Part shown: one piece after another, positions 7,864 through 54,924 of the stretch
How positions within the stretch are numbered: position 1 is the stretch's first letter
Layout: every line of letters starts with the position of its first letter
Source of the DNA: Paracrocinitomix mangrovi
Lineage (GTDB): Bacteria > Bacteroidota > Bacteroidia > Flavobacteriales_D > Crocinitomicaceae
Direction of reading: 5' to 3'
Length of the DNA stretch: 64,000 nt
NCBI RefSeq assembly: GCF_019740355.2
Contig: NZ_CP091819.1
Location: forward strand, 1,736,001 to 1,800,000
Translations under genes and position numbers: made by a program
Notes under the pieces: model-generated
Databases searched by the model: none
What the model was told of the DNA's origin: nothing
The model's input: the letters and a program-made list of their open reading frames with translations, nothing else

Positions 7864-7864
7864 T

Positions 7865-36259: not shown

Positions 36260-36450
36260 ACATAACACAGTAAGCAAAGCTTACGTCCACCCTTGTCCAG
36301 CGCAAAAAGCTCCCATTAGCGTGTCCAAAGTCCTGGGGTGCCATCACACGGTCGGACAGCCAGAGTCCGGGGTTTTTGGCCTACGCACTCGTTCGCAATT
36401 TAGGTTTGCTGCGCGCACCATAAATTGCTAGCTTTGCTCAAACGTTAGGG
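36260..36450 (+). repeat. attC site 3
   Basis: R'' ACATAAC; cassette ends GTTATGTGTAATT / AACTACACATAAC match. Core GTT at 36444. 191 bp, with an extra internal hairpin module (CGCAATTTAGGTTTGCTGCG). The L' box reads TAGCTTTG, an exact TAnnTTTG match. Confidence 0.85.
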
Positions 36451-36493
36451 GTAATTGTCTGTAGGACAAAAACCAACCTAACGGACCCAAAAC

Positions 36494-36949: not shown

Positions 36950-36957
36950 AAAACTAC

Positions 36958-37127
36958 CCCTAACATAATAACTAAAAATCATGTCCGACACTCTGGCCAC
37001 GCTTCTTCCTCCCATTACTTGTCCATAGTCCGGGCGGCCATCACTCGGTCGGACAGCCAAAGTCCGGGTTTTTTGGCCAACGCACTTCACGACGCAATAA
37101 ATTGCTATTTTTAGTCAAACGTTATGA
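36958..37127 (+). repeat. attC site 4
   Basis: R'' CCCTAAC; cassette ends GTTAGGGGTAATT / AACTACCCCTAAC match. Core GTT at 37121. Type I, with L' box TATTTTTAG. Confidence 0.85.
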
Positions 37128-37648
37128 GTAATTCAGATTACATACCTGACTCAATAGTTTTATCACACATTCTTTCTGTTTTGCTATCTCTCTGGGGCTT
37201 GGCATTAATCGGACTAACCATCTCAATTATGCTGACCGTAAAGGAAAATGAAGCATTATTCATTTATGGAACTACGGAATATGGCGAAGGGGACTTTAGT
37301 TATCTCAAATTATCCGTGAGATTTCACAGCACTTTAATTCAAGGAATATTAGCGTTTATTGGAGGTGTGTTAATGCTATTTCGTAAAAACATTGGTTGGT
37401 CAATAGCTCTCGCAGTCGGAATTATTGAAATCATAAGGTTCATATGGTTCATTTTTGCGTTTGATCCAGATCCAGACATAAAAGAATTTTCAAAATTGCT
37501 TTCGGTCGGACTGGTGGCGTTCTTCATTATATTTTCATCTCTGTTGTTCTTACCCAGAATCCGAGAGCGCTTTACTGTTATTCGTAAAAATGGCTTGTCA
37601 GTACTTGTTATTTCTGCAGTAGTTCTACTTGACTACTTTCTGCTATAG
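37124..37648 (+). CDS. Cassette 5: multi-pass membrane protein, unknown
   Basis: A 174 aa protein with about five hydrophobic segments separated by short charged loops (one reads FDPDPDIKEF). The ATG lies in the cassette core GTTATG. No family recognised. Confidence 0.78.
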   Translation: MSNSDYIPDSIVLSHILSVLLSLWGLALIGLTISIMLTVKENEALFIYGTTEYGEGDFSYLKLSVRFHSTLIQGILAFIGGVLMLFRKNIGWSIALAVGIIEIIRFIWFIFAFDPDPDIKEFSKLLSVGLVAFFIIFSSLLFLPRIRERFTVIRKNGLSVLVISAVVLLDYFLL

Positions 37649-37657
37649 AAAAACTAC

Positions 37658-37824
37658 TCATAACAAAATAGGTAAAGCCCACGTCCGACTCTCGTCCACG
37701 CGCTTTTCGCCCATTATTTGTCCATAGTCCGGGCGGCCATCACGCGGTCGGACAGCCAGAGTCCGGGGTTTTGGCCTGCACACTTCGCACGCAATAAATT
37801 GCTAGCTTTACCCAAACGTTATGG
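37658..37824 (+). repeat. attC site 5
   Basis: R'' TCATAAC; cassette ends GTTATGAGTAATT / AACTACTCATAAC match. Core GTT at 37818. Type I. Confidence 0.85.
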
Positions 37825-38405
37825 CTCATTCCATGCAGGACCAATTGAAATACATAGAATTAAAAACTGGTTATTCTGATGACGGACCAGCATGGATAGG
37901 TATGGTGCAATTCTCAAAGTCTGGTAGGACAATTTACTTCAATGGTCAAGCATTCAAGTCGCTTAACGGACAGGGAGTTGGAGCTAATTACTATGATCTA
38001 GAATCACTAGATGAATATTGGATCTCAGGTGTAAAAAAAGACGGTACAGACCGCCATTGGGCTGGTGGAGGAAAAATTATGATCCAAAAAGACATAGTTG
38101 ACCAATACTTGACCATAACCGGGTGGTCGGAACTTGACAAAAACCAATACGAATTAGTTGAAATTGCACCAACGGATAAGCAGTACTTTAAAGATTTGGA
38201 AAACGAGACACTGGAAGAGGAACTAGACTTCCAAAAACTCAAAGAAAAAGAACTTCACAAGTTGACTGATGAAGAACTCGATTTTCTGATTGAGGAATTT
38301 GAATATGATGTACAAAGCACCAAATTCAGCAAGGCAAGGCGCAGTTTGTCTCGCAAATTGACTGAACTGCAAGAGGAAAAAGAAAAACGAGCCATAACAC
38401 AATAG
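37821..38405 (+). CDS. Cassette 6: soluble protein of a recurrent hypothetical family
   Basis: A 194 aa protein. Residues 1-110 form a compact beta-rich unit with GPAWIGMVQFSKSGRTIYF, YYDLESLDEYWISGVKK and HWAGGGKI. From memory, this pattern recurs in short bacterial hypotheticals. The C-terminal 70 residues are a charged helix (EELDF, KLTELQEEKEK). The ATG is in the core GTTATG, and the frame runs into its own attC. Function unknown. Confidence 0.78.
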   Translation: MAHSMQDQLKYIELKTGYSDDGPAWIGMVQFSKSGRTIYFNGQAFKSLNGQGVGANYYDLESLDEYWISGVKKDGTDRHWAGGGKIMIQKDIVDQYLTITGWSELDKNQYELVEIAPTDKQYFKDLENETLEEELDFQKLKEKELHKLTDEELDFLIEEFEYDVQSTKFSKARRSLSRKLTELQEEKEKRAITQ

Positions 38406-38560
38406 GTAAAGTTCATGTCCGACACTCTGGCAACGCTTTTCCCTCCCATTACTTGTACATATCCGGGCTGCCATCACTCGGTCGGACAAACCAGAATCCG
38501 GGGTTTTGGCCACCGCACATCAAGACGGCATAAATGCCTAACTTTACCCAAACGTTGTGT
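38392..38560 (+). repeat. attC site 6
   Basis: R'' CCATAAC; cassette ends GTTATGGCTCATT / AACGAGCCATAAC pair (rc GTTATGGCTCGTT). Core GTT at 38554. Type I with the right end GGCATAAATGCCTAACTTTACCC, which contains an ATG in frame with the next gene. Confidence 0.85.
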
Positions 38561-38578
38561 GTAATTACCAGAACCCAA

Positions 38579-38977
38579 TTGACTTCAGAATTCATTCATA
38601 GAATTACAGAAATCCTAAACAAGTTCAATGTCGACTATGTCGTAACTGGCGGAACTTCCAAAATAATTAGGGGCGAAGATTATTTGACATTTGATTTGGA
38701 TATTGTAGTGGAAAATTCCAATGATAATTTAAATAGAGTGAACAAGTTCGTACATCAAATTACGTCAGAGAAAATTGATCTTACGGATAATTTCAAATCA
38801 AACAGAATTACAAGAATAAATACGTTTCCATTCTCAATTGATATAATGCCTAGATTAGACGGTCTAGAAAATATTAACATCTTCAAAAACTCTGAATTAG
38901 TGGAATTCGAAGGACGAAAAATCCCATGCATTTCAGAAAGTGATTTGATGAAAAACTATAAAAGCTTTAAGACATGA
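38579..38977 (+). CDS. Cassette 7, gene a: nucleotidyltransferase-fold protein
   Basis: A protein of about 132 aa with a minimal nucleotidyltransferase signature: YVVTGGTSKII, then FDLDIVVE with two acidic metal ligands, and a third Asp in FSIDIMPRLDG. This resembles the AbiEii/MNT/DUF6036 group used in toxin-antitoxin and abortive-infection modules. The start is uncertain: TTG 38579, TTG 38555 in the core, or an ATG at 38534 inside the preceding attC. It overlaps gene b by ATGA. Confidence 0.75.
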   Translation: MTSEFIHRITEILNKFNVDYVVTGGTSKIIRGEDYLTFDLDIVVENSNDNLNRVNKFVHQITSEKIDLTDNFKSNRITRINTFPFSIDIMPRLDGLENINIFKNSELVEFEGRKIPCISESDLMKNYKSFKT

Positions 38978-39477
38978 ACGAACAAAAGATGGTATTCGTA
39001 ATCAACAGTTCCAAATCAAATTACGAGAATTCTCCTGAATTTGCGTCAATTTCATCCTACATAAAACCTACCATGTGGCATGCGGATGGTGATATAGAAA
39101 CCTTCTGCACTGAGATATCCTATTCGACATTTAAACTGTTGGACAATCAATTCTCATTCGACTTTGACAGATCAGCAAAGCAAGAAGGAAAAGTATCTTA
39201 CAAAGAATTTCTCAATGAAAATGAAATTCAGAGCCTGAGTTATTTCGATTATGGTGGGGAGAAAATATACCGATTGCTTTTACACGACATGGACTGGTAT
39301 AAAGTAAAATCAAAGGATTTGAAATTGATTTGTGACAAACTTCAAAATTATTTGGCATCTCATCAAATTCTGCATAGCACCGAAGTAATCACTGAAGACT
39401 TAGACAAGCTGTCTGCTATTGCTGAGTTCTGTAGCTCCAATAATCTGAATTTGTCAGTGTTCGACCCAAACTTTTAA
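38974..39477 (+). CDS. Cassette 7, gene b: partner of the nucleotidyltransferase, unknown
   Basis: A 167 aa soluble protein starting at the ATG that overlaps the stop of gene a, so the two are translationally coupled. No RxxxxH of HEPN proteins or DNA-binding domain is seen. The pairing inside one mobile cassette suggests joint function, possibly toxin and antidote. Confidence 0.72.
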   Translation: MNEQKMVFVINSSKSNYENSPEFASISSYIKPTMWHADGDIETFCTEISYSTFKLLDNQFSFDFDRSAKQEGKVSYKEFLNENEIQSLSYFDYGGEKIYRLLLHDMDWYKVKSKDLKLICDKLQNYLASHQILHSTEVITEDLDKLSAIAEFCSSNNLNLSVFDPNF

Positions 39478-39483
39478 AACTAC

Positions 39484-39653
39484 ACACAACACAATAGGTA
39501 AAGTTCATGCCCGACACTCTGGCCGCGCTTTTCCCTCCCAGCACGTGTACATATCCGGGCTGCCATCACTCGGTCGGACAAACCAGAGTCCGGGGTTTCT
39601 TGCCAGCGCACATCAAGACGGCATAAATGCCTAACTTTACCCAAACGTTATAA
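39484..39653 (+). repeat. attC site 7
   Basis: R'' ACACAAC; cassette ends GTTGTGTGTAATT / AACTACACACAAC match, proving both genes belong to one cassette. Core GTT at 39647. Type I with the GGCATAAATGCC right end. Confidence 0.85.
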
Positions 39654-39664
39654 GCAATTACGAT

Positions 39665-40132
39665 TTGGACGAAGAGTTATTCAATAGTATTAAGGACAAT
39701 GCACTTGGGTGGGAATTCGACTGGTTTGCATTTGATAAAAAAGGACAAATCGGAATGTTCACAACATTTTATGGCTGCATAGTTCCAAGTCAAGTTTGGG
39801 AATCTTATGAAAACTACGGAAATACTTTGAACTACTTTATTGGTTTGCAACCTGAACTTACACCGGAACAAATACTGGACTCAATTCCTGGGCAGACCAA
39901 TGACTGGAAAGAATATGCCAAAACAGGACTTTTTGCTCATAATTACGAAAGCACGGACTACGGTGCTACAAAAGATTATTATGAATTGAAAGTCAAACCA
40001 GAAAAACCATTGCTCAAAGCGGACTTGAAATTGGAAAAGCAGTATATCGAAGCAATGCCTGTGCTAGATGTAGAGTTTGGAGTTGACACCCAAATCAACA
40101 GTAAAGGGATTGAAAAACTGCTTATAACATAA
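39665..40132 (+). CDS. Cassette 8: soluble acidic protein, unknown
   Basis: A 155 aa protein, TTG start at 39665. The first half resembles small immunity-type proteins in composition (EFDWFAFDKKGQIGMFTTF, aromatic and acidic), but no family is assigned. The stop codon lies inside the R'' region, so the attC encodes the last residues (LLIT). Confidence 0.72.
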   Translation: MDEELFNSIKDNALGWEFDWFAFDKKGQIGMFTTFYGCIVPSQVWESYENYGNTLNYFIGLQPELTPEQILDSIPGQTNDWKEYAKTGLFAHNYESTDYGATKDYYELKVKPEKPLLKADLKLEKQYIEAMPVLDVEFGVDTQINSKGIEKLLIT

Positions 40133-40288
40133 TAGCTAAAGCATACGTCCGACACTTGGCCGGCGCGCTTTCGCCCATTACTTGCCCATAATCCGGGCGG
40201 CCATCTCGGTCGGACAGCCAGAGTCCGGGGATTTTTTGCCCGCACACTTCGCACGCAATAAATTGCTAGCTTTAGCCAAACGTTATGC
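40122..40288 (+). repeat. attC site 8
   Basis: R'' TTATAAC; cassette ends GTTATAAGCAATT / AACTGCTTATAAC match. Core GTT at 40282. Type I. Confidence 0.85.
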
Positions 40289-40812
40289 ACAATTGCAGTA
40301 TGGACGGAATCACCTTCATAGAAAATGTAATCCCTAATCCTGAAAAACTCTACGAAAAACTAGAGCTTTCAGTCAATTGGGATGAACGCATGCACGCTCG
40401 AAAGACAGCAAGCTACGGAGTTGCATATAACTATTCACAAATCAGTTATCCTTTTCAAGAATTTACGCCTGAACTTGTTGGACTGCTTGATTTAATTGAA
40501 AAACATCTCGGTTTCAGACCGAATAATTGCTTAATCAACTTTTATCTTGACGGAAAGTCAACCATGGGTTGGCATTCGGATCAGACAGATATTTTGCATG
40601 ACGGAACAGGTGTAGCAATTATTTCTCTTGGAGACACTCGGTCACTGAGATTCAGAGAAATTGCAAATAAAGAAAATAAATTAGACTTCCCATTACCAGC
40701 TGGATCACTGATTTATATGACACAGGAAGTTCAGGATCTTTGGCATCATTCTGTACCTAAATCGCCAGAAAGCAAAGGTAGAATGAGTCTGACATTTCGT
40801 AGAATTAAATAA
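40285..40812 (+). CDS. Cassette 9: AlkB-like 2-oxoglutarate/Fe(II) dioxygenase
   Basis: A 175 aa member of the AlkB superfamily, which oxidatively removes alkyl groups from nucleic acids or acts on other substrates. Iron ligands are H97 and D99 (GWHSDQ) and probably H155 (WHHSVP). R166 and R172 (RMSLTFRR) fit the 2-oxoglutarate and substrate arginines. NFYLDGKSTMGWHSD is typical. The ATG in the core GTTATG or a second ATG at 40300 can start it. A DNA-repair role is likely but unproven. Confidence 0.9.
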   Translation: MHNCSMDGITFIENVIPNPEKLYEKLELSVNWDERMHARKTASYGVAYNYSQISYPFQEFTPELVGLLDLIEKHLGFRPNNCLINFYLDGKSTMGWHSDQTDILHDGTGVAIISLGDTRSLRFREIANKENKLDFPLPAGSLIYMTQEVQDLWHHSVPKSPESKGRMSLTFRRIK

Positions 40813-40816
40813 CTGT

Positions 40817-40987
40817 GCATAACACAATAGGTAAAGCACATGTCCTTCCCATTTTTGCCAACTCACTTGCACCCATTACGTGCCCATGAAGTGGTTTTTG
40901 CCTTCACACGGTCGGACAGCCAGAGTACGGGTTTGGCCAGCGCACTTCACGTCGCAATAAATTGCTAGCTTTACCCAAACGTTAGGG
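40817..40987 (+). repeat. attC site 9
   Basis: R'' GCATAAC; cassette ends GTTATGCACAATT / AACTGTGCATAAC match. Core GTT at 40981. Type I with a diverged left inner arm (GTCCTTCCC). Confidence 0.85.
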
Positions 40988-41030
40988 GTAATTGTCTGTA
41001 GGACAAAAACCAACCTAACGGACCCAAAAC

Positions 41031-41486
41031 TTGAAAACAAAGCATATTCATATCGCTTACGGACTGACAGCTCTATTATTGCTGTTTATGTCTTTATTCA
41101 CTGGAGCAACATTTGATATTGCATTGCATGATACATATGTAGTCATACCAAATTGGCACATTTTCATTGTGCTTTCATTTCTATTCGGACTGTACTTTAT
41201 TGTCGCTTACCTACTTTACAAGAATTCAAGAGCTATGCGAAAAGTTTTGGGCCTAATTCATTGGTCAATTACTGTACTCGGACTAATTACGAGTGCATTG
41301 CTAGTTAAAAATATAATCAACGAAACACCAAGACGATACTATGATTATAGTGTGTATGATCCTGAAAATACTTACTCAAACTCTACAGACTTGAATTATG
41401 TCTTAGGGATAGTTCTAATCATCACACTAATCGCCCAACTGCTATTCGTTCTGAATTTGGTTTTAGCACTGACCAAAAAAGAGTGA
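41031..41486 (+). CDS. Cassette 10: COX1-motif membrane protein (copy 2 of 2)
   Basis: The predicted protein is identical to that of cassette 4 (151 aa, TTG start, HDTYVV motif). The copied unit is 677 bp between core GTT sites (40981 to 41658), including leader and attC. The DNA outside the cores differs on both sides, as expected for a cassette inserted a second time. Confidence 0.8.
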   Translation: MKTKHIHIAYGLTALLLLFMSLFTGATFDIALHDTYVVIPNWHIFIVLSFLFGLYFIVAYLLYKNSRAMRKVLGLIHWSITVLGLITSALLVKNIINETPRRYYDYSVYDPENTYSNSTDLNYVLGIVLIITLIAQLLFVLNLVLALTKKE

Positions 41487-41494
41487 AAAACTAC

Positions 41495-41664
41495 CCCTAA
41501 CATAATAACTAAAAATCATGTCCGACACTCTGGCCACGCTTCTTCCTCCCATTACTTGTCCATAGTCCGGGCGGCCATCACTCGGTCGGACAGCCAAAGT
41601 CCGGGTTTTTTGGCCAACGCACTTCACGACGCAATAAATTGCTATTTTTAGTCAAACGTTGTAC
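41495..41664 (+). repeat. attC site 10
   Basis: Copy of attC site 4 up to the core GTT at 41658, where identity ends (GTTGTACG instead of GTTATGAG). Confidence 0.85.
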
Positions 41665-41672
41665 GCCATTAG

Positions 41673-42068
41673 ATGAAAGTTTCAGATAATCAAATAAGGT
41701 TTGTGCTAATAGATTCTGTTAATGATGATATCATGCAACTGTGGGAAATTAATTCTGACTTACAACGTGAATTTGGCTCTGAACCAAATTTAATTGAACG
41801 GACTGTAAAACTAATTTTGGAATATCTTGAAACAGGACTTATTTGTGCAGGTAAATTAGACTGGAAAAATTCAAGTCCAGAGTTTAATAGAATTTCTCTA
41901 TCGGAAGCTCAGGCTGTAATTCGAGATCATGAAAATTGGAAAAATTTTGATTCAAATTCTGGCAAAGAGTGGAGCTATGCTCTCAGTTCTACCAACCTTG
42001 AAAATTCAATTGCAGAGGAGAACCGTCTGGCTACCATAGTGAAAAACGGCGCACAACATAATAGCTAA
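41673..42068 (+). CDS. Cassette 11: soluble acidic protein, unknown
   Basis: A 131 aa protein with ISLSEAQAVIRDHENWKNF in its second half. No domain recognised. The frame continues through the R'' box and stops at TAG in the L'' box (TAGCTAAA), so the last residues (AQHNS) are attC-encoded. Confidence 0.72.
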   Translation: MKVSDNQIRFVLIDSVNDDIMQLWEINSDLQREFGSEPNLIERTVKLILEYLETGLICAGKLDWKNSSPEFNRISLSEAQAVIRDHENWKNFDSNSGKEWSYALSSTNLENSIAEENRLATIVKNGAQHNS

Positions 42069-42221
42069 AATTCATGTCCGACACTCTGGCCACGCTTTTA
42101 CCGCCCATTACGTGTCCATAATCCGGGCGTCCAACTCGCGGTCGGACAGACCAGAATCCGGGGTTTTTCCCCACCGCACATCAAGTCGCCATAAATGGCT
42201 AATTTTAGCCAAACGTTATGC
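42051..42221 (+). repeat. attC site 11
   Basis: R'' GCACAAC; cassette ends GTTGTACGCCATT / AACGGCGCACAAC pair (rc GTTGTGCGCCGTT). Core GTT at 42215. Type I with the right end CGCCATAAATGGC. Confidence 0.85.
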
Positions 42222-42784
42222 ACAATTACGCAAAAATAATCAAAGTACTTACCTTAATTTTTTTGTTTTGCACAAAGACCACCTTTTGCCAAGAGATTAA
42301 TATAAACTGGAAAGCTTATCAGTCTGAAATAAATAAAGCCGACAGAAATTTTAGAAATCAAAAATTCCAGAAAGCTCTCAATCATTACAAAATAGCCTCA
42401 AAAGAATGGAAATTCAACTATGTACAAAGTATGATCTCAATTTGCGAATCTTTGGTTGACAAAATTGAAAATTCAAAGAATCCAAATCTGGCAGTAGTCT
42501 CGTTCGCCGATTCTTTATTTACTAAAAGAAATTATTGCTTGTCATATCGAATTTATTCAGGATGTAAACAAGACGCTCATGTCACTTCTAGAATAAATGA
42601 TATTGATAAAATGGTAATACATTGTGATTCAGATGAAGAGCAATATTTCGCAATTATTCAGACAGCAGAAAAATATGTTAAAGAAGGAAACCATGAAAAA
42701 GCATTACTGTTGTTTCAAAGAGCATTAGCTATTAATCCTAATGATCCATATCCAAAAAAGAGAATTACGGACTTAGGTGGTTAA
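42218..42784 (+). CDS. Cassette 12: secreted TPR-like protein
   Basis: A 188 aa protein with a signal peptide (FLFCTKTTFCQ) followed by TPR-like helices: FRNQKFQKALNHYKIA at about 44-59 and VKEGNHEKALLLFQRAL near the C-terminus. Probably periplasmic. The ATG is in the core GTTATG. Partner unknown. Confidence 0.78.
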   Translation: MHNYAKIIKVLTLIFLFCTKTTFCQEININWKAYQSEINKADRNFRNQKFQKALNHYKIASKEWKFNYVQSMISICESLVDKIENSKNPNLAVVSFADSLFTKRNYCLSYRIYSGCKQDAHVTSRINDIDKMVIHCDSDEEQYFAIIQTAEKYVKEGNHEKALLLFQRALAINPNDPYPKKRITDLGG

Positions 42785-42790
42785 AACTGT

Positions 42791-42982
42791 GCATAACACA
42801 ATAGGTAAAGCAAAGCGTCCTCCCTTGTCCATCACACTTGCTCCCATTTGCGTGTACATATCTTGGTTTGGCCACTTCACGTAGGACGCGCCCAGTATCC
42901 GGGGTTTGGCCTGCGCACTTTCGCACGTAATTTGTATTTGCTGCGCAAACAACAAATCACTAGCTTTAGCCAAACGTTATGC
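42791..42982 (+). repeat. attC site 12
   Basis: R'' GCATAAC; cassette ends GTTATGCACAATT / AACTGTGCATAAC match. Core GTT at 42976. 192 bp with an extra AT-rich hairpin (GTAATTTGTATTTGCTGCGC). Confidence 0.85.
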
Positions 42983-43500
42983 TTCATTCCGAACCAGAAA
43001 TTAATGACTTAGAAGTAATGGCTATTTTCAGAATGGCACTAGAGAAGTCTATAATTGAACAGAAATCTGTAGTTGAATGGTCGGACAAAATCATATCTTC
43101 AAATCCAGAAAATGTCCCTGACTTTGCGCTCGAACTAAGTATATCTGGCAACTACGGAGTTAATGAAGCTGTTCACTTATTGCGTGAAAACGAGTCAACT
43201 TTGGAAAATCCAGTGTTATGGAAAATCTTATACGGACTTGTAGGCCTATTTTATCGGGAAAAGCAAATCGAACTCTCGCGTGCATGCAATGCTATTGCTG
43301 ATTTTGCCAATGAAATTATGTCAAAAACCGAATATGACCTATTTGGAATGTCAGTGTCTGATGCATACTTTCTTGCTGAAAATGGTTCTTATGGAAATTT
43401 GGAGAATGTCGAAAAGTCTTTACTAGAATTAACAGAAGAACAATTGCATCTTGGCAAGTGGTTCAGATCAAAATACTTAATGCAGAAAAACGAAGCATAA
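42979..43500 (+). CDS. Cassette 13: helical protein (copy 2 of 2)
   Basis: The predicted protein is identical to that of cassette 2 (173 aa). The copied unit spans 681 bp between cores, 42976 to 43657. Flanking attC sequences differ, so this is a second copy of a whole cassette rather than a longer segmental duplication. Confidence 0.82.
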   Translation: MLHSEPEINDLEVMAIFRMALEKSIIEQKSVVEWSDKIISSNPENVPDFALELSISGNYGVNEAVHLLRENESTLENPVLWKILYGLVGLFYREKQIELSRACNAIADFANEIMSKTEYDLFGMSVSDAYFLAENGSYGNLENVEKSLLELTEEQLHLGKWFRSKYLMQKNEA

Positions 43501-43663
43501 CACAATAGCTAAAGCAAAGCGTCTACCCTTGGCCAGCACACCTGCTCCCAATGGCGTGTACAAAGTCCTGGTTTGGCCTAACACGGTGGACTACCAAAGT
43601 ACGGGGTTTTGGCCTGCGCACTTTCGCACGCAATAAATTGCTAGCTTTAGCCAAACGTTAGCA
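43495..43663 (+). repeat. attC site 13
   Basis: Copy of attC site 2 up to the core GTT at 43657; beyond GTTA the sequences differ (GCATT here, TGTGT there). Confidence 0.85.
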
Positions 43664-43678
43664 TTAATTACCCAAAAC

Positions 43679-44272
43679 ATGAAATTCCATCTCTTTATTC
43701 TACCGTTTTTGCTGTTTGCATGTGCTGGAACTGAGCAAGAAAATAATGCGGAGCAAGAAGAAACAAATCTCGATAAGAATGACGAGCCAACTTTCACAGG
43801 ATACTTATCGAAAATTCCAGATGAAAAATTGCCTTTTGAAATTGATTGCAGCACTCCATTTTTTAAGTTTGATATCAGTTATAAAGTTTATGAAAAGTAT
43901 ATCCCTGAAGGAGGCTCCACTTATAGCAAACTGATAACGGAAGCTGGACACAACCTGGTTGTTTACACATTTGCCGGTGACATCATCAATCCAATACTAT
44001 ATTCATACGATTCCAACGGACAAGTAATTGACTCATTATGGCTGTATAATGGATCATGCAACGGAGACCCTTGGCTTGAGAGTAGCTGTCACACTATCGT
44101 AAGAGAAGATTTAACAATCGAAATGCATGATACTATTCAACACTATTTCTTCAATGACACTATTAGAAGACTAGACTCAACCTCTCTTGAAACTGAGCTT
44201 TACAAGGTCAACGAAGAAGGAAAGTTCGCATTTGTTAGCAAAAATACCGTGTTATTAGGAGTAGAAAACTAA
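43679..44272 (+). CDS. Cassette 14: lipoprotein, unknown
   Basis: A 197 aa lipoprotein (FLLFACAGT). After the lipobox comes an acidic, Glu/Asn-rich linker and a beta-rich domain with several Cys (GSCNGDPWLESSC). ATG at 43679, 22 bp after the core. Function unknown. First of the clear lipoprotein cassettes. Confidence 0.78.
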   Translation: MKFHLFILPFLLFACAGTEQENNAEQEETNLDKNDEPTFTGYLSKIPDEKLPFEIDCSTPFFKFDISYKVYEKYIPEGGSTYSKLITEAGHNLVVYTFAGDIINPILYSYDSNGQVIDSLWLYNGSCNGDPWLESSCHTIVREDLTIEMHDTIQHYFFNDTIRRLDSTSLETELYKVNEEGKFAFVSKNTVLLGVEN

Positions 44273-44440
44273 TGCTAACATAGTAGGTAAAGCTCACGTC
44301 CGACACTCGTCCACGCGCTTTTCGCCCATTACTTGTCCATAGTCCGGGCGGCCACCACTCGGTCGGACAGCCAAAGTCCGGGATTTTTTGCCTACACACT
44401 TCGCACGCAATAAATTGCTAGCTTTAGCCAAACGTTATGT
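44273..44440 (+). repeat. attC site 14
   Basis: R'' TGCTAAC; cassette ends GTTAGCATTAATT / AACTAATGCTAAC match. Core GTT at 44434. Type I. Confidence 0.85.
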
Positions 44441-44446
44441 GCAATT

Positions 44447-44812
44447 ATGGGACTGAAACGGGCAATTGACCAGTATTCTGGTAACAATCAAACTTTAGAA
44501 GAACATTACGAATTCTTGAAAGGATACAATCCCATACTTTCACAAAACATGATTCAATGTCTTAAAGTTTTAAACGATAATCTGAAAAAAAGGGATTACT
44601 ATGCATTCACTTCACATGAAACTTTAGTCTTTGTGGATGGACATAGATCGAATTCGAACCCTATAGCATTCGTTCAATGCAAATTTCAGCAACCAGAACT
44701 TCTTGAAGTGGGTATTTGTAAAGGACCAAATCTCCAAGATAGAGTTTTAACAAAGTCTGATCTGACCATTTCGGAAGCAATGGAAACTATATTGAGTTAT
44801 TTGCAAAAATGA
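44447..44812 (+). CDS. Cassette 15: small soluble protein, unknown
   Basis: A 121 aa protein with a helical N-terminal half and a beta-rich second half (YYAFTSHETLVFVDGHR). ATG at 44447, 13 bp after the core G. No domain recognised. Confidence 0.72.
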   Translation: MGLKRAIDQYSGNNQTLEEHYEFLKGYNPILSQNMIQCLKVLNDNLKKRDYYAFTSHETLVFVDGHRSNSNPIAFVQCKFQQPELLEVGICKGPNLQDRVLTKSDLTISEAMETILSYLQK

Positions 44813-44820
44813 AAAACTGC

Positions 44821-44958
44821 ACATAACACAATAGGTAAAGCGCATGACCTAACCATTTTTACCTTCACCCCTAAAAGCCATCAGGATCGCACCCAATTCA
44901 ACTAAAATTTCATTTTCGTTGAACAAAGTAAATTGTTAGTTTTAGCCAAACGTTAACA
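44821..44958 (+). repeat. attC site 15
   Basis: R'' ACATAAC; cassette ends GTTATGTGCAATT / AACTGCACATAAC match. Core GTT at 44952. First type II site: the right half carries the TTCAACTA...TCGTTGAACAAAG module; 138 bp. Confidence 0.83.
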
Positions 44959-44983
44959 TTAATTAAAACCAAAACTTAAAACT

Positions 44984-45472
44984 ATGGGACTGTTCAGTAG
45001 GAAAAAGAAATCGAATTCAGAAGAGCCAAAAAAGCAAGAAAGCTCTCAGCTTGATGAATTCACACAACAAATGTCGGACACTGCTGAACAATGTGTAGCC
45101 CGTTTTAAGGATCGCCATAATTTGGATTTTTCGGTGAAAAGTCTCGAGTTAATTGATGAACTTCTTGAAGAAGCTTCTGACTTTTACCCAGAAATGCCGG
45201 ACGGACAAAAAAAGGGAATGATCCAATCGTTTGGTTCATACATATTTGAAGTCGCTCGAAGAAATTATGGCGGAAAATACTTTTGGTATGACCAGGGAAA
45301 TCAACCAATATTTGTCACTGGACAACCAAAGTTTGAAATCTCTTTAATTGCTTTCGACAAAGTCAAAGGAAGACTGGAAAATGGAAAAGAAGATAATATC
45401 CCATTCTTCTTTGCCGGTTACACTGAAAGAGTCGAGAGCGCTAAGGAGGGTGATCGCGCTACCATTGTGTAG
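44984..45472 (+). CDS. Cassette 16: soluble protein of unknown function
   Basis: A 162 aa protein: lysine-rich N-terminus (MGLFSRKKK), a helical region with MSDTAEQCVARF, then GGKYFWYDQGNQPIFVTGQP and a C-terminal FFFAGYTERV. The pattern looks like a conserved small family, but I cannot name it. Confidence 0.74.
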   Translation: MGLFSRKKKSNSEEPKKQESSQLDEFTQQMSDTAEQCVARFKDRHNLDFSVKSLELIDELLEEASDFYPEMPDGQKKGMIQSFGSYIFEVARRNYGGKYFWYDQGNQPIFVTGQPKFEISLIAFDKVKGRLENGKEDNIPFFFAGYTERVESAKEGDRATIV

Positions 45473-45480
45473 AAAACTAA

Positions 45481-45706
45481 TGTTAACATAATAGCTAAAG
45501 CTAAGCGTCCACCCTTGGACGCCGCACTTGCTCCCATTTGAGTGTCCAAAGTTCTGGTTTGGCCTAACTCGGTAGACAGCCATCCCGAGGACTCGGGAGG
45601 TTTTTTTTGCCTACACTCCCGATAGCTATCGGGATCGCACGCAATTCAACTACAAATTCATTTTTGTTGAACAAAGTAAATTGCTAGATTTAACCAAACG
45701 TTATGC
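45481..45706 (+). repeat. attC site 16
   Basis: R'' TGTTAAC; cassette ends GTTAACATTAATT / AACTAATGTTAAC match. Core GTT at 45700. 226 bp hybrid: a type I left arm, CCCGAGGACTCGGG, the 16-nt palindrome CCCGATAGCTATCGGG (45618-45633), and the type II right arm. Confidence 0.85.
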
Positions 45707-46494
45707 TTCATTCAGTCATCAGCATTTTACAACCGAATATCTTAATAGCAGCAGCAGTTGCTTTAATATTCTGTTCTTGTAATGGTGAAAATACATCTAG
45801 TAATGAAAATGTCAACGATATCAATAGTTCTGAAGATTTGACAATTTGGACTTATGATCCTGTTAAAGACACCATTTTATTGAATGAAGAATTTCCAATT
45901 GAGTCACTTCATTTAGATCAAATATTAGAGATTCAAAATTCAAACTATGATAACAAAGTATTCTTAGAATACTCTAAAAAATCTAATGACGCAATCTTTG
46001 TAAAAATCCAAGACAGTAAATTTCTAACTCAAAGGATGGGAAGCACGGGTGCATATGAATATATGGTATCCGCGACTTTTAATCTGACTGAACTACCTGA
46101 TATTAACTTCGTGAATTTTGATTTTGAAATAGGTGATCATGCTAGTCCTGGCACTTATAACCGCAACCATTTTTGGAATGAAATACTGCCTGAAAATGAC
46201 AGTTTATTTTATCGATATATCGAGTACTTGGACGTTGTTTTTCTCGACAAGAATCCAAAAAACACACTCCCATATACTCCCATTCTCGTTGGTACAGACT
46301 CGTCTTATGGATGGCGTAACACGGATATTGCCAGAGTAATAGGATTTTTAGACAAGGCTACTAATCGGCATACGCAATTTGAAATCAGTTATGGGACATT
46401 TGGTGCTTACATCAACAATTATACTGATTCACTGTATAATCTAGAGCGCATGGAATGGCTCAATTTATATGAAAAACGAAGCATAACAAAGTAA
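45703..46494 (+). CDS. Cassette 17: lipoprotein, unknown
   Basis: A 263 aa lipoprotein (ALIFCSCNGEN) starting at the ATG in the core. The mature protein is acidic and beta-rich with many Asn and Tyr. The frame ends inside its attC (RSITK). It resembles no family known to me. Confidence 0.76.
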   Translation: MLHSVISILQPNILIAAAVALIFCSCNGENTSSNENVNDINSSEDLTIWTYDPVKDTILLNEEFPIESLHLDQILEIQNSNYDNKVFLEYSKKSNDAIFVKIQDSKFLTQRMGSTGAYEYMVSATFNLTELPDINFVNFDFEIGDHASPGTYNRNHFWNEILPENDSLFYRYIEYLDVVFLDKNPKNTLPYTPILVGTDSSYGWRNTDIARVIGFLDKATNRHTQFEISYGTFGAYINNYTDSLYNLERMEWLNLYEKRSITK

Positions 46495-46601
46495 GCAAGG
46501 CTAACTTCCAACCTTCATTTATCAAACATTAAAACCCAATTCAACTACAATTTCATTTTCGTTGAACAAAGTAAATTGCTAGCTTTAGCCAAACGTTAGC
46601 T
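46481..46601 (+). repeat. attC site 17
   Basis: R'' GCATAAC; cassette ends GTTATGCTTCATT / AACGAAGCATAAC pair. Core GTT at 46595. Short type II, 121 bp; the middle is AT-rich (CTTCCAACCTTCATTTATC) and resembles attC site 38. Confidence 0.83.
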
Positions 46602-46622
46602 ACAATTACAATAGGAACCACC

Positions 46623-46946
46623 ATGACTTCAGAGGAATTTGTAAAAGGGTTTAAAGACCTAAAAGATGACTTGATCAAAGAATACTTGAACTCGCAACAA
46701 ACAGAAGTTGGGAAGAAAATTGCGGAACTACATCTTGAAGATAAATCTCAAATTAAATCTATCCTAGACGGTGCTCTGACAGACTGCATGTACTCAATTT
46801 TACTTGGGTTGGACGGGTGTGCAAGTATTGGAAATAATATGCAACAGCCTTTTCAAATCAAAGATGAAAACGGACAAGCAGTGTCTGAGGGAGACGGCAC
46901 CTTAGAAGCACTAGCATATGACTTTTTTCATGGTGAAAGATCCTGA
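46623..46946 (+). CDS. Cassette 18: small acidic protein, unknown
   Basis: A 107 aa protein with a helical N-terminal half and GDGTLEALAYDFFHGERS at the end. Composition is like small immunity proteins, but no family is recognised. ATG at 46623. Confidence 0.7.
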   Translation: MTSEEFVKGFKDLKDDLIKEYLNSQQTEVGKKIAELHLEDKSQIKSILDGALTDCMYSILLGLDGCASIGNNMQQPFQIKDENGQAVSEGDGTLEALAYDFFHGERS

Positions 46947-46958
46947 TTGAAAAACTGT

Positions 46959-47182
46959 AGCTAACACAGTAAGCAAAGCTCACGTCCGACACTAGTCCAT
47001 CTCACTTTGTGCCCAATGGCACGTCCATAAAGTGCTTTTTGCCTTCACATCAACTTCGCCAAGGCTACGTTGATTCAAAACGGTCGGACAGCCATCCCGA
47101 GTCCTCGGGATCGCACGTAATTCAACTACAATTTCATTTTCGTTGAACAAAGTAAATCACTAGCTTTAGCCAAACGTTATGA
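46959..47182 (+). repeat. attC site 18
   Basis: R'' AGCTAAC; cassette ends GTTAGCTACAATT / AACTGTAGCTAAC match. Core GTT at 47176. 224 bp with the hairpin module ATCAACTTCGCCAAGGCTAC...GTTGAT, CCCGAGTCCTCGGG and the type II arm. Confidence 0.85.
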
Positions 47183-47202
47183 GTAATTAGCGGTTATAAC
47201 TT

Positions 47203-47811
47203 ATGAGCAAAAAATATTCAGCTGACAATATACAATCTCTTTCTGCAGGTGAACACGTTAGGAAAAGACCTGAAATGTATTTTGAGGACTGTTTTAAAAA
47301 TGGAACTTTAGACTCGTTGCCCTTCGAGGTACTTTGTCATGCAATAGATGAATATTTTGAGGGAAATTGTAATCAAATCAACATAGAAATCAGTGATTTC
47401 GCATTTTCTGTAGAGTATAATGCTAGTATGTCTTTGGAATTAATTCATGGCTTAACTAAAGCTGAAGTTATAATGACCAAAATAGGGGCATGCTCAAATC
47501 AAAAGAAACATCTTGAAGTAGGAGCAGAATTCTGCAGAATAGGCATGGCAGCTATCAATTTTGCCTCGAAAGAAAGTAAGGTTTCTACCGTATGGGTAAA
47601 TCAAAAGGGAATTTTGACTTTCCAAAATGGAAAAACTCAATCAGTAGAGATTTTAGATTATCCAAACTCAAAACCTCACACTAAAATCGAGATTAAAATT
47701 GATCAATCTATTTTCCCAGAACTAAAATTCACTGAGGAAGGCGTATCTCAAAAAGCAAAAGAATTGCAAAACAAACTAAACAAGCTCAAAGTAACCGTCA
47801 AAAAAATATAG
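47203..47811 (+). CDS. Cassette 19: GyrB/ParE-like N-terminal domain, predicted pseudo-ATPase
   Basis: A 202 aa protein aligning with roughly residues 1-220 of DNA gyrase B. IQSLSAGEHVRKRPEMYF matches the N-terminal arm, FEVLCHAIDEY the ATP-lid helix, and GLTKAEVIMTKIGA the region before the lid. E42, D49 and E50 are kept, but the magnesium-binding Asn46 is His. The DGRGIP loop (here about 71-78) and the glycines of GGLHGVG (here AEFCRIG, 108-114) are lost. No transducer, TOPRIM or C-terminal domains. It might dimerise with or mimic gyrase; catalysis is unlikely. Confidence 0.82.
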   Translation: MSKKYSADNIQSLSAGEHVRKRPEMYFEDCFKNGTLDSLPFEVLCHAIDEYFEGNCNQINIEISDFAFSVEYNASMSLELIHGLTKAEVIMTKIGACSNQKKHLEVGAEFCRIGMAAINFASKESKVSTVWVNQKGILTFQNGKTQSVEILDYPNSKPHTKIEIKIDQSIFPELKFTEEGVSQKAKELQNKLNKLKVTVKKI

Positions 47812-47825
47812 GAGTAGAAAACTAT

Positions 47826-47963
47826 TCATAATACAATAGGTAAAGCACATGTCCTTCCCTTTTTTGCCAACTCTCCCGATAGCTATCGGGATCACACGCA
47901 ATTCAACTACAATTCCATTTTCGTTGAACAAAGTAAATTGCTAGCTTTAGCCAAATGTTATGT
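47826..47963 (+). repeat. attC site 19
   Basis: R'' is changed to TCATAAT; cassette ends GTTATGAGTAATT / AACTATTCATAAT still pair. Core in ATGTTA at 47957. Type II with the palindrome CCCGATAGCTATCGGG at 47875-47890. Confidence 0.75.
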
Positions 47964-47984
47964 GTTATTGACGATTTGACTTAT

Positions 47985-48662
47985 TCATGGATACGATTTT
48001 TTACCATCCATGAACATTTTCAACTTAAACTTTAGAAAGAAAACATCAGACTCAGACATTTCTGAAAATGACTTACCTGTTAATTCCTCAAAATACAAAT
48101 TGACTTTTATCATCCATTCTTCCCATTCTGCTAACTGCTGTTCTCTCCACTTTGGGAAATTTTCGATCTTGACTTTTTCTCCGTCAATAATTGTAACCGT
48201 ATCTCCGTTTTCCTTGTTTATAAAATCTTCAACATACTCATCACCCTGAATATATTCACCGTTACTAAGAACCTGACCAGAATTATACAATATAATCTCA
48301 TTGCCCAACCACCACATCATCCTCCTGCTTTTTTCAAGACTAATCCCTTCTCCATATGGTCTGTTATCATAACACCATGAACGAATTGAATCTTCTGTAC
48401 TGAAATCGTCCAATTTATATGCTCGACTAAAACTGTCCAGCTTTTCATTTTTCACTACGTACAAACTGTCAAGAACAGCTTTCAATGAATCCTGATATGG
48501 TTTATTCTTAACTTTTGATACAACGTATTTAATTTCAGCATCTTGAACATGCTCCTCCAAAATACAAAACTGACATTCTGCTGTTACATCAACGTATTCA
48601 GAATCACTTTGACACGAAGAAAATAAAAATAGATTACAAAGTGTTACTAATACTATACGCAT
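47985..48662 (-). CDS. Cassette 20: lipoprotein in reverse orientation
   Basis: A 225 aa lipoprotein (LFLFSSCQSD) read on the - strand, the only reversed cassette gene seen. It has several Cys near the N-terminus (ECQFCILEE) and a Trp-rich central part. The cassette itself is in normal orientation (its attC lies to the right), so the gene must have its own promoter, probably near 48665-48690. Confidence 0.76.
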   Translation of the reverse strand: MRIVLVTLCNLFLFSSCQSDSEYVDVTAECQFCILEEHVQDAEIKYVVSKVKNKPYQDSLKAVLDSLYVVKNEKLDSFSRAYKLDDFSTEDSIRSWCYDNRPYGEGISLEKSRRMMWWLGNEIILYNSGQVLSNGEYIQGDEYVEDFINKENGDTVTIIDGEKVKIENFPKWREQQLAEWEEWMIKVNLYFEELTGKSFSEMSESDVFFLKFKLKMFMDGKKSYP

Positions 48663-48689
48663 AGACTAAATATATTGTAAAAAAACAAC

Positions 48690-48919
48690 ACATAACACAA
48701 TAGCTAAAGCTAAGCGTCCACCCTTGGCCACCACACTTGCTCTCAATAGCGTGTCCATAAAGTAGTTTGGCCTTCACATCAACTTCGCCAAGGCTACGTT
48801 GATTCAAAACGGTCGGACAGTCAGAGTACGAATTGGCCACCGCACTTCAAGACGGCATTCTACTTCAATTTCGCTTCCGTAGAACAAGGTAAATGCCTAA
48901 CTTTAGCCAAACATTATGT
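48690..48919 (+). repeat. attC site 20
   Basis: R'' ACATAAC; cassette ends GTTATGTGTTATT / AACAACACATAAC match. The core is mutated to ATT (48913). 230 bp with the ATCAACTTCGCC hairpin and a variant right arm (TTCTACTTCAATTTCGCTTC). Confidence 0.78.
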
Positions 48920-48944
48920 TCAATTCCCAAAACATACCCAACCC

Positions 48945-49727
48945 ATGAACATATTTAAATCATTATTCAAACCTAAAGGCAGCATTTTCGAAGGACTAGT
49001 AGATGAATCTGGTACTGGAGGAGTTTTGGACAAAGGCGATACATGGACTCTATTTTTTTCAGTACTTGCATACAGTGAAAACGATTCTGACTTAATTGAG
49101 GAAAAAATTACAGTACATAAAACTACGACTCAAGAAAAGGCGAAAAAACTCATGAACCAAATTGAACCTTTGTCTTTGCTCAAATTTTCGGGCGAAATAG
49201 TCCAAGAAAAAAATAGACGGAAACTAATCATGAATGATCTTATCGATTCTAATTGGAAAAATGAGAAGTTCACAAGCTTTATTGCAGATAGAATTAAGCC
49301 TGTGCATTTTGAAAGTTCATTATTCGGACAATTGACTTTGGAAAGAGCATATGACTGGTTTAGTGGAACTGGAACTTGGTGTGAGCATAAGGTTGGAATT
49401 AATTACAGTTCGCAGGAACACAATGCTGCCAAGGTCGAAGAATTCGCAAAGACCGTTGTTTCAGACCAAACTGAATGGAGCAAGAAAATCAATTCAGGAA
49501 TAATCAAGGATTTATTAAATCTAAAAAACACATCCTGGTTAGAAGATGATGAGCCGACAATTTCAGAACAAGATTTTCTAGACAAAATCTCATTGGAGAC
49601 AATCACTTTTTATGATGATGGTTCATTCGAATTCTGGTACAATGATGGCGATTTATTCTGGGGACATTCCATTCAAGTTGACGGATCTATCAATGATGGC
49701 ATTGACAGAGCAACCATAGTTGGATAA
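48945..49727 (+). CDS. Cassette 21: DUF2262-like protein
   Basis: A 260 aa protein. The C-terminal half matches what I know of DUF2262: LERAYDWFSGTGTWCEHKV, a run of helices with NTSWL, then FYDDGSFEFWYNDGDLFWGHSI and a final ATIVG. The family occurs as stand-alone proteins and in immunity-like contexts; its activity is unknown. ATG at 48945. Confidence 0.78.
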   Translation: MNIFKSLFKPKGSIFEGLVDESGTGGVLDKGDTWTLFFSVLAYSENDSDLIEEKITVHKTTTQEKAKKLMNQIEPLSLLKFSGEIVQEKNRRKLIMNDLIDSNWKNEKFTSFIADRIKPVHFESSLFGQLTLERAYDWFSGTGTWCEHKVGINYSSQEHNAAKVEEFAKTVVSDQTEWSKKINSGIIKDLLNLKNTSWLEDDEPTISEQDFLDKISLETITFYDDGSFEFWYNDGDLFWGHSIQVDGSINDGIDRATIVG

Positions 49728-49744
49728 CCAGAGTAGAAAACTGA

Positions 49745-49986
49745 ACATAACATAATAGCTAAAGCTAACGTCCTCCCTTGGCCGGCTCACTTTCACCCAT
49801 TACGTGTCCATAATCCGGGCGGCCATCATCAACTTCGCTGAAACTATGTTGATTGAGAGCGGTCGGACAGCCAGTATCCGGGGTTTTGGCCTACACTCCC
49901 GATAGCTATCGGGATCACACGCAATTCAACTACAATTTCATTTTCGTTGAACAAAGTAAATTGCTAGCTTTACCCAAACGTTAGCT
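49745..49986 (+). repeat. attC site 21
   Basis: R'' ACATAAC pairs with the cassette start (ATTATGTTCAATT). Core GTT at 49980. 242 bp with the ATCAACTTCGCTG hairpin, the palindrome at 49898-49913 and the type II arm. Confidence 0.82.
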
Positions 49987-49992
49987 ACAATT

Positions 49993-50625
49993 ATGAAGTA
50001 CGTCATTGTTTTCATATTTCTTTCATTCCAACTTGGAACATTTTGTCAATTAGATACGATTTGGACATTGAAAAATAGCAAACATCATATAGGAAGAATC
50101 TATTCTGATAGTACTCTTTACCAATCATTTGATTTAAATTATGAAGAGTATTCTTACTTCAGCCCTGACTCAAGTAAGCAAATTATAATTTACGAAACAC
50201 CAAGCATACATAATGATAGTATTGTAGAAGGTGTTGGGACATTATCAGGAGACGATTATTTCCGAAATGGGACAGTCAAGACTTATTATCCAAATGGTAA
50301 TCTAAAAGAGATTATTAATTATAAAAGTGGGTTACTCAATGGAAAATATGAACTTTATTATAAATCAGGAAACCTTGCTGTAACCGGACAATACTTAAAA
50401 CATGCCAGAATTGGAAAATGGAAATACTTTTATAATAATCAGACCGTGATTTCGCAAAAGGAATACAATGGCACCATGACTGTCTGCTGGGTTTATCCTC
50501 CAACATTAGAATCAATTTACTTTTCGGAAGGATATACATTAATCCATTCTGATGAAAAAATTCAGACTTTCAAAGACACTTACTGCCCTGGAGGTTACTG
50601 CAGTCTCACTTGGATCAATTTGTAA
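49993..50625 (+). CDS. Cassette 22: secreted MORN-repeat protein
   Basis: A 210 aa protein with signal peptide (FQLGTFCQ) and MORN-like repeats in the middle: GTVKTYYPNGNLKEIINY, LLNGKYELYYKSGNL and ARIGKWKYFYNNQ. These resemble the YwqK-type MORN variant common in Bacteroidota. A cysteine-rich end follows (CPGGYC). Role unknown; cassette 43 encodes a similar protein. Confidence 0.82.
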   Translation: MKYVIVFIFLSFQLGTFCQLDTIWTLKNSKHHIGRIYSDSTLYQSFDLNYEEYSYFSPDSSKQIIIYETPSIHNDSIVEGVGTLSGDDYFRNGTVKTYYPNGNLKEIINYKSGLLNGKYELYYKSGNLAVTGQYLKHARIGKWKYFYNNQTVISQKEYNGTMTVCWVYPPTLESIYFSEGYTLIHSDEKIQTFKDTYCPGGYCSLTWINL

Positions 50626-50644
50626 TTGGATTGTAGGAAACTAC

Positions 50645-50753
50645 AGCTAACATAATAGCTAAAACATACGTCTGACCTTTGGCCAGCGCAGTCGTTCGCA
50701 ATTTAGGTTTGCTGCGCGCACCATAAATTGCTAGCTTTACCTAAACGTTAGGT
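50645..50753 (+). repeat. attC site 22
   Basis: R'' AGCTAAC; cassette ends GTTAGCTACAATT versus rc GTTAGCTGTAGTT, nearly matching. Core GTT at 50747. Short, 109 bp, with the TTTAGGTTTGCTGCG module also seen in site 3. Confidence 0.8.
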
Positions 50754-50763
50754 GTCATTACCA

Positions 50764-51387
50764 ATGAGACAGTTTATCTATAATATTTTCCTTGTATCAA
50801 TTTTATCAAGCTGCTATTCAGAAAGCTCTGAAAATAATGTATTAGAGGACTACAAACATGATAACATAGATCAGTTGGACTCAACTGAGGATCATACAGA
50901 ACAAATCCTTAACATTCTAGATAGTATTGATTATTCAATTCAATTTATAGAAAAGCTTAAAGACATACCTGCAAAAACTATATCTCTTAGTGATAGCTTA
51001 TTTATAATTGACCAAACTGACACATTCATATTTCCTCAAAATCTGAATTTAGAAGAGGATATCGTTTTTACTGGAAAGAAAGATCATGTTGCAATTGCTT
51101 TGTCTCTAAAAAGAATAAACCAAACATCTCTTAACTATCGCTTCGAAATGGTAGAATTTGGTAATTCAAGTTATTTTCAAAATGGTATTTTGACATTAAC
51201 TCCAAATTTCTACGAAGAAAATTATCTGGCCGAATATAATGACATCACAGACTCATGTTCTTTCCGAATTTTTATTGGTCCAGATGAAGAAACAGGATCT
51301 TCATTGTCATGCAAGCTTATAAAAGACTGTAACGACAAACTAAAAAATATTGAAGATCAGGATTTCCCAGTACTTCTACCAAAGTAA
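50764..51387 (+). CDS. Cassette 23: lipoprotein, unknown
   Basis: A 207 aa lipoprotein (SILSSCYSE) with an acidic, Asn/Asp-rich linker and a beta-rich domain. Paired Cys near the end (DSCSF, LSCKLIKDC). ATG at 50764 is preferred to a GTG at 50752. Function unknown. Confidence 0.75.
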   Translation: MRQFIYNIFLVSILSSCYSESSENNVLEDYKHDNIDQLDSTEDHTEQILNILDSIDYSIQFIEKLKDIPAKTISLSDSLFIIDQTDTFIFPQNLNLEEDIVFTGKKDHVAIALSLKRINQTSLNYRFEMVEFGNSSYFQNGILTLTPNFYEENYLAEYNDITDSCSFRIFIGPDEETGSSLSCKLIKDCNDKLKNIEDQDFPVLLPK

Positions 51388-53531: not shown

Positions 53532-53923
53532 GCATTTATAAATTCTACCTGATATTGATTTTCCTAATAGTGTCAAAATCATACGCTCAGGAAATTCGTC
53601 TGGAAATTTATAATAGCACCAAGTTTGATCTTTCAAATGTGCAGTTAGGTGGAGAATCAATCAAATTGCTAAAATCCGGAAAGACTAAAACCTTAATTGT
53701 TAAAACTGCAATTGATTGGCAAGATGGTGCGCCATTTGGAAATGTAGTTGCCCAGGTGAAGAAACATGGCGAAAAACGTTATTGGAAATTGGATTGCGGA
53801 ACAGGACTACATTCAATTTCTTCTGGAACTTATTGCGTATCAATCGTCATGTCTCCAACAGAAAATAAAGAAGGCTATTATTTGTTTTGGCGCAGAAATA
53901 CCGGCGTAAAAAACTGCCCATAA
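53528..53923 (+). CDS. Cassette 27: small secreted protein, unknown
   Basis: A 131 aa protein with signal peptide (FLIVSKSYAQ), ATG in the core. The mature part is beta-rich, with Cys at WKLDCGTG, YCVSIV and the end NCP. The stop codon overlaps the R'' box. Function unknown. Confidence 0.76.
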   Translation: MGIYKFYLILIFLIVSKSYAQEIRLEIYNSTKFDLSNVQLGGESIKLLKSGKTKTLIVKTAIDWQDGAPFGNVVAQVKKHGEKRYWKLDCGTGLHSISSGTYCVSIVMSPTENKEGYYLFWRRNTGVKNCP

Positions 53924-54196
53924 CACAATAGCTACAGCTAACGTCCACCCTTTGGCCGCGAGCATTACGCCCAATGCGTGTTCACTATCCGGGCAACCAT
54001 CATCAACTTCGCTGAAGCTATGTTGATTGAGAGCGGTCGGACAGACCTTGCTTAGTCGAAGCGGCTACGCGAAGGCAATGCAGAGTCCGGGATTTTTCGC
54101 CCATAATCCCGATAGCTATCGGGATCGCACGCAAGTCAACTGCAATTTCATTTTCGTTGAACAAAGTAAATTGCTAATTTTATTCAAACGTTATGG
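53918..54196 (+). repeat. attC site 27
   Basis: R'' CCATAAC. Core GTT at 54190. The longest site, 279 bp, with four nested palindromic modules including CCCGATAGCTATCGGG at 54108-54123. Its first 127 bp (53918-54044) are identical to attC site 28. Confidence 0.82.
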
Positions 54197-54719: not shown

Positions 54720-54730
54720 TTGAAAACTTT

Positions 54731-54924
54731 CCATAACACAATAGCTACAGCTAACGTCCACCCTTTGGCCGCGAGCATTACGCCCAATGCGTGTTCACTA
54801 TCCGGGCAACCATCATCAACTTCGCTGAAGCTATGTTGATTGAGAGCGGTCGGACAGCCCAGAGTCGTGACTGGCCGACTCACTCGCGCCAGCATAAATG
54901 CTTATATTTACTCAAACGTAATGG
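54731..54924 (+). repeat. attC site 28
   Basis: R'' CCATAAC; cassette ends GTTATGGTAAATT / AACTTTCCATAAC pair. The core is mutated to GTA (54918). The first 127 bp equal attC site 27, then it diverges to a short right arm. Confidence 0.78.

Follow-up and report, generated by a model that had tools for sequence, protein, structure and literature searches.

An open reading frame of Paracrocinitomix mangrovi (ORF 47203-47811), carried on a cassette of integron-like anatomy, encodes a stand-alone homolog of the GyrB ATPase subdomain in which the nucleotide-binding motifs are replaced and the former ATP pocket is conserved in a new state throughout a small family of relatives. Most likely, the product derives from gyrase but has taken on a new job and is not a part of gyrase. 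As far as the open-licence literature shows, a gyrase ATPase subdomain that exists on its own, without ATP motifs and under selection, is undescribed; no account of a GyrB-domain mimic or of an orphan GyrB-domain family was found there. Coordinates refer to the window, the whole 64,000-nucleotide stretch of DNA that was analysed.

The ORF (ATG start, TAG stop) is an open frame of 203 codons encoding 202 aa, with the boundaries given in the original prediction. The protein is matched over residues 2-199 by the NCBIfam profiles NF011501 (E 5.8e-21) and TIGR01059 (E 1.5e-18), and a phmmer search of PDB sequences retrieves the N-domains of solved GyrB/ParE proteins (best E 6.9e-12). These E-values exclude chance homology to GyrB/ParE. 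A Pfam search with the protein returned only noise below cut-off, and the HATPase models were not reached. Identity to the host's own GyrB is 31%. The transducer (QTK loop) and TOPRIM domains are absent, as the chain stops at residue 202. Thus, the homology to the GyrB N-domain and the altered motifs, both claimed at the outset, are borne out by the NCBIfam, PDB and host GyrB comparisons and by an alignment to 27 GyrBs. The features of the coding region are:

47203-47811, plus strand: ORF for a stand-alone GyrB ATPase-subdomain homolog without nucleotide-binding motifs (202 aa; profile, structure and alignment matches)
47203-47283, plus strand: N-terminal arm and RxRPxMYF segment (aa 1-27), the most GyrB-like part, with Y5 and I10 kept (alignment, segment conservation)
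47323-47364, plus strand: former N-box helix (aa 41-54), FEVLCHAIDEYFEG, with E42, D49 and E50 kept, D45 replaced by C and N46 by H (alignment)
47413-47442, plus strand: former G1 box DGRGIP (aa 71-80), now EYNASMSLEL (alignment)
47491-47544, plus strand: former ATP lid (aa 97-114), CSNQKKHLEVGAEFCRIG, the best-conserved stretch within the family, only about 20% GyrB-like (alignment, segment conservation)

The predicted structure retains the GHKL ATPase fold. While AlphaFold gave an unusable model from the single sequence (pLDDT 33), the low score was cured by the family alignment of 18 sequences, from which a model of pLDDT 90.9 and pTM 0.87 was obtained. A Foldseek search of the PDB with this model listed 50 matches, every one of them to a GyrB, ParE or gyrase ATPase structure, with a best E of 1e-13 and TM values that mostly lie at 0.7-0.8 when normalized by query length. 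The structure prediction of the lone protein that had been called for thus yields a GyrB/ParE-like fold. The first ten residues are modeled with low confidence (66), as would be expected of a free arm.

The motifs were compared in an alignment of the 18 family members and 27 GyrBs (Klebsiella GyrB numbering), in which the register of the G1 box (GyrB 73-79) is uncertain to within one residue. GyrB residues retained in the protein are Y5, I10, R22, Y26, E42, D49, E50, G119 and T165. Replacements in the first part include D45 to C, N46 to H, D73 to Y, P79 to S, G101 to C, G102 to S and K103 to N, with R76 deleted; toward the lid end, Y109 is replaced by L, S112 by G, G113/G114 by A/E, H116 by C and G117 by R. 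Six of these changes (D45C, N46H, D73Y, K103N, S112G and H116C) occur in all 18 members, and the nucleotide motifs N46, D73-x-G-x-G, K103 and GGLHGVG are replaced in the protein and in nearly all of the family. The alignment confirms the specific observations of the original prediction (i.e., E42, D49 and E50 in register, His for Asn46, and DGRGIP and GGLHGVG destroyed). The broader claim that catalytic residues were lost stands for the residues that bind nucleotide, but the presumed general base of the GyrB ATPase, Glu42, is still present. Since Gly occupies this position in 9 of the 18 members, the family does not appear to need E42. In GyrB, the triphosphate is contacted by backbone amides and by Asn46, Lys103, Gln335 and Lys337, Asp73 binds adenine (PMC4388272), and the ATP lid is formed by residues 99-120 (PMC4159350).

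Likeness to GyrB is unevenly distributed along the protein. The arm and RxRPxMY segment are 46-65% GyrB-like, with Y5 in 15/18 and I10 in 17/18 members (dimerisation arm), compared to 16-26% for most of the rest and 39% for the helix before the lid. The lid segment (97-114) shows the highest conservation within the family (85%), while its GyrB likeness (20%) is among the lowest. The residues that are changed and fixed (C45, H46, Y72, C97, N99, K102, H103, G107 and C111) are concentrated in the former nucleotide pocket. Likewise, 12 of the 21 columns that are fixed in the family yet unlike GyrB fall in the old pocket and lid, which hold 43 of the 202 columns (p 1.5e-4, a value inflated by the generally higher conservation of pocket positions). 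As mere loss of ATP binding should let these positions drift, the old pocket is considered locked in a new state and not merely lost.

The relatives form a small and coherent family. In an order-level search of whole genomes, relatives that are likewise stand-alone and about 200 aa long turned up in three other genomes from the same taxonomic family as the window (E 1e-43 to 1e-61), and a collection scan with their alignment found 17 loci, three of which are identical to loci of the order-level search. The 17 loci are from two Crocinitomix MAGs, ten Chryseobacterium, one Flavobacteriaceae MAG, one Saprospiraceae MAG and three further MAGs; the family is thus known here from 18 aligned sequences, ten of them from one genus (Chryseobacterium). 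It is infrequent, being found in 5 of 240 Crocinitomicaceae genomes and in 1 of 395 genomes of a phylum sample (the genome of the window itself). The members share a signature (single clade, stand-alone, about 200 aa, C45-H46, N99, K101-K102-H103, G107 and C111) to which the cassette-borne protein conforms; this copy keeps every family-invariant residue. All 18 members match GyrB models below cut-off, none reaches a Pfam family, and no Pfam or NCBIfam model is specific to the family. No relative was found in the viral_contigs collection; matches in phages and plasmids are to gyrase/topoisomerase genes, unannotated stretches or a longer ATP-binding protein, and are far weaker than those within the orphan family. 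PADLOC found nothing.

The family has a single origin, as all 18 members fall in one clade (support 100/100), the very long stem of which makes the exact point of attachment to the tree uncertain. The orphans favor the flavobacterial letter at six of the seven positions (e.g., in MEHVR and TKIGA) by which flavobacterial GyrBs are distinguished from the other GyrBs sampled. From these data we infer that the 5' part of a flavobacterial gyrB was duplicated once and that rapid change and then stability followed. Ratios of dN/dS between orthologs within Chryseobacterium and within Crocinitomix are 0.08-0.26 (approximate values, as synonymous distances often approach or exceed 1) and indicate that purifying selection acts on the relatives of ORF 47203-47811.

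The cassette that carries the gene belongs to a long array of repeated sites, the relevant features of which are:

47165-47189, plus strand: right end of the preceding attC-like site, with the cassette start GTTATGAGTAATTAG at 47176 (repeat analysis)
47823-47960, plus strand: attC-like site closing the cassette of ORF 47203-47811, its left part complementary to the cassette start (ATTATGAATA versus GTTATGAGTA), with the right core TTTAGCCAAATGTTA (repeats, complementarity)
35262-64000, plus strand: array of about 40 attC-like sites in the same direction, running past the end of the window (repeat and border analysis)

Cassette starts are complementary to their own ends, as the integron model demands: on average, 5.7 of the 7 variable bases pair, compared to 3.26 +/- 0.19 in shuffled sets, and 21 of the 40 are perfect. 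The predicted single-strand fold of the site that closes the cassette is mildly better than that of shuffles, a weak effect (z -2.26). No recombinase gene was found at the left border of the array; the array thus looks like a CALIN, with its right end outside the window. The stand-alone, GyrB-derived pseudo-ATPase domain on a cassette that had been proposed is therefore supported by homology, motif loss and cassette anatomy. Further clusters of the same site type occur in the genome at about 925, 2128, 2331 and 2444 kb, for a total of about five clusters and roughly 100 sites of one attC-like type. The 2331 kb array follows immediately upon a Xer-like recombinase of 380 aa (2329887-2331029), which has the same orientation and an N-terminal extension, scores over the cut-off of NF040815 and reaches 202 bits against the 265-bit cut-off of TIGR02249 (integron integrase). 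Relatives of this recombinase (49-68% identity) are found in several genomes of the same order. Among the genomes examined, cassette carriage of the orphan gene is confined to P. mangrovi, the gene being chromosomal elsewhere; no attC-like repeats were found around five relatives from outside Chryseobacterium.

Other contents of the array were also noted. Most of the cassette ORFs tested (35276-51384) have no Pfam match, the exceptions being a DUF2262 protein (48945-49727) and a protein with MORN repeats (49993-50625); several apparently encode lipoproteins, including one in minus-strand orientation (47985-48662). Two successive attC-like sites (53910-54047 and 54723-54860) share 98% identity across 138 nt, compared to 60-85% for most of the others, which points to recent duplication or to a common source of capture.

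Across the ten Chryseobacterium genomes, the position of the orphan gene is syntenic, between genes for a DUF2807 protein and phosphoglucomutase. It starts within about 20 bases of the end of the DUF2807 (head GIN domain) gene or overlaps it, and the two are, by reason of this spacing, probably co-transcribed. The relatives in the two Crocinitomix MAGs are located downstream of the gene for a protein with PLD, ResIII helicase, DUF3427 and S24-peptidase parts (locus coordinates 4624-7974 and 2-1930), a defense-like architecture that was not seen beside the orphan gene in the other lineages examined. A constant partner gene was considered and rejected, as the neighbors are unrelated in lineages other than Chryseobacterium; the lack of a constant neighbor across lineages suggests that the orphan protein acts alone.

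Chances are about even that the family represents neofunctionalised non-ATPases in which the rebuilt ATP pocket does the work. A flavobacterial GyrB would have had its ATPase subdomain duplicated without the transducer and TOPRIM parts, the copy retaining the GHKL fold and N-terminal arm while giving up Mg-ATP binding, and the former pocket and lid would have been rebuilt as an invariant site (C45-H46, Y72, C97, N99, K101-K102-H103, G107 and C111). The result would be a small stand-alone protein, possibly an arm-swapped homodimer, which would not hydrolyse ATP and would bind something other than ATP in the rebuilt pocket; in P. mangrovi, it is carried by an integron-type cassette. The absence of ATP use, the dimerisation and the nature of the ligand are put forward as predictions. 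A metal or thiol ligand bound through the Cys/His residues is a first candidate, as is a partner peptide; the conserved C30, C45, H46, C97, H103 and C111 suggest a metal or thiol site. The kept arm may allow a homodimer or docking on GyrB/ParE. Counting against neofunctionalisation is the retention of E42, D49, E50 and T165 in the cassette-borne protein, which may reflect weak or unusual nucleotide binding. On this reading, the family is a clean case of the ATP site of an essential enzyme remade into something else, and the strong pocket signature makes its function testable.

Nucleotide binding in an altered manner, with the protein sensing but not hydrolysing, for example, ADP, a different nucleotide or a messenger derived from one, would accommodate these residues and the retained GHKL fold, G119 and, in half of the family, E42. 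It is nonetheless unlikely, as the adenine-binding Asp73 is replaced (N/D if the register is shifted by one residue), Asn46 and Lys103, which bind the triphosphate in GyrB, are missing (roles from PMC4388272), and the Gly-rich loop is lost. A decaying gyrB fragment without function would explain the truncation, the missing motifs and the mere 31% identity to host GyrB, but is hardly credible given that intact relatives across Bacteroidota carry the same replacements, dN/dS is well below 1 and the cassette copy preserves all of the invariant residues. A decoy role, in which the protein would sequester toxins or drugs directed against the ATPase domain of GyrB/ParE (e.g., Fic AMPylators, Cpe1-type proteases and aminocoumarins), is very improbable, although the protein is a copy of a frequent toxin target and resides on a mobile cassette in one genome. 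Arg136 and Asp73 of GyrB bind aminocoumarins such as novobiocin; Arg136 is absent in all 18 members and Asp73 is replaced by Tyr, which disfavors the suggested protection against these drugs by a novobiocin sponge. Protection against gyrase poisons as a substrate decoy is similarly disfavored, as the Fic target Tyr109 (PMC7479194, PMC10886550) is absent (Leu in 16/18) and the Cpe1 cleavage motif LHAGGKF (PMC12136450) has its Gly-Gly replaced, by Cys-Ser in most members; the protein could still bind such an agent without being its substrate.

Regulation of gyrase or topo IV, in which the orphan would dock through its conserved arm at the N-gate, stand in for the second protomer of GyrB or ParE and damp or protect the enzyme, is a tentative possibility that narrows the originally suggested gyrase binding to GyrB/ParE. 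Such regulation is consistent with the high GyrB likeness of the arm, RxRPxMY segment and helix before the lid, and with the reach of the GyrB N-terminal segment into the ATP site of its neighbor (PMC4159350). However, closure of the N-gate is driven by ATP binding (PMC4159350), which the orphan domain should lack, the arm may be retained for a homodimer, a surface mimic would have no need for an invariant rebuilt pocket, and the family is present in few genomes. Contact with GyrA, as originally suggested, has no basis by homology, with the TOPRIM, tail and transducer parts absent; CcdB acts on GyrA (PMC10886550), to which the domain has no homology. A metal- or redox-responsive regulator that combines the Cys/His-rich rebuilt pocket with docking on gyrase/topo IV via the GyrB arm, captured by an integron-type system in at least one genome, is doubtful.

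Compared to the 24 kDa N-terminal ATPase subdomain of GyrB (and ParE), the orphan shares the fold, subdomain length, arm, RxRPxMY segment, D49, E50 and, in the cassette-borne protein, E42; it differs in being stand-alone, without transducer, TOPRIM or tail, and in having another invariant set in place of the nucleotide motifs. Among published proteins, Arabidopsis GYRB3 and longer truncated GyrB-like proteins such as PDB 3cwv come closest as precedents. GYRB3 is similarly GyrB-derived, shortened and not a gyrase subunit, but it is eukaryotic and truncated differently (PMC2845627). PDB 3cwv (369 aa) and a Streptomyces plasmid ATP-binding protein (388 aa) likewise have the GyrB N-terminal region without the rest, but are longer than the orphan, with room for a transducer domain, and the match to 3cwv is very weak (E 2.6). 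The array resembles integron gene cassettes and CALINs in its tandem, same-direction attC-like sites, mostly one ORF per cassette and no integrase found beside it within the window, and differs in that the other arrays of the genome include one directly behind an Xer-like recombinase that scores below the integron-integrase cut-off. The gyrase-binding MfpA/Qnr, CcdB, ParE toxin and Igy are also small proteins, some of them cassette- or plasmid-borne, that act on gyrase (PMC10886550); these are DNA mimics or toxins of other folds, whereas the orphan is a copy of a GyrB domain that is like them in size and carriage, with gyrase binding hypothetical. Contact of the orphan with gyrase, if it occurs, would make it a mimic of a GyrB domain, in contrast to the DNA-mimic proteins that are known.
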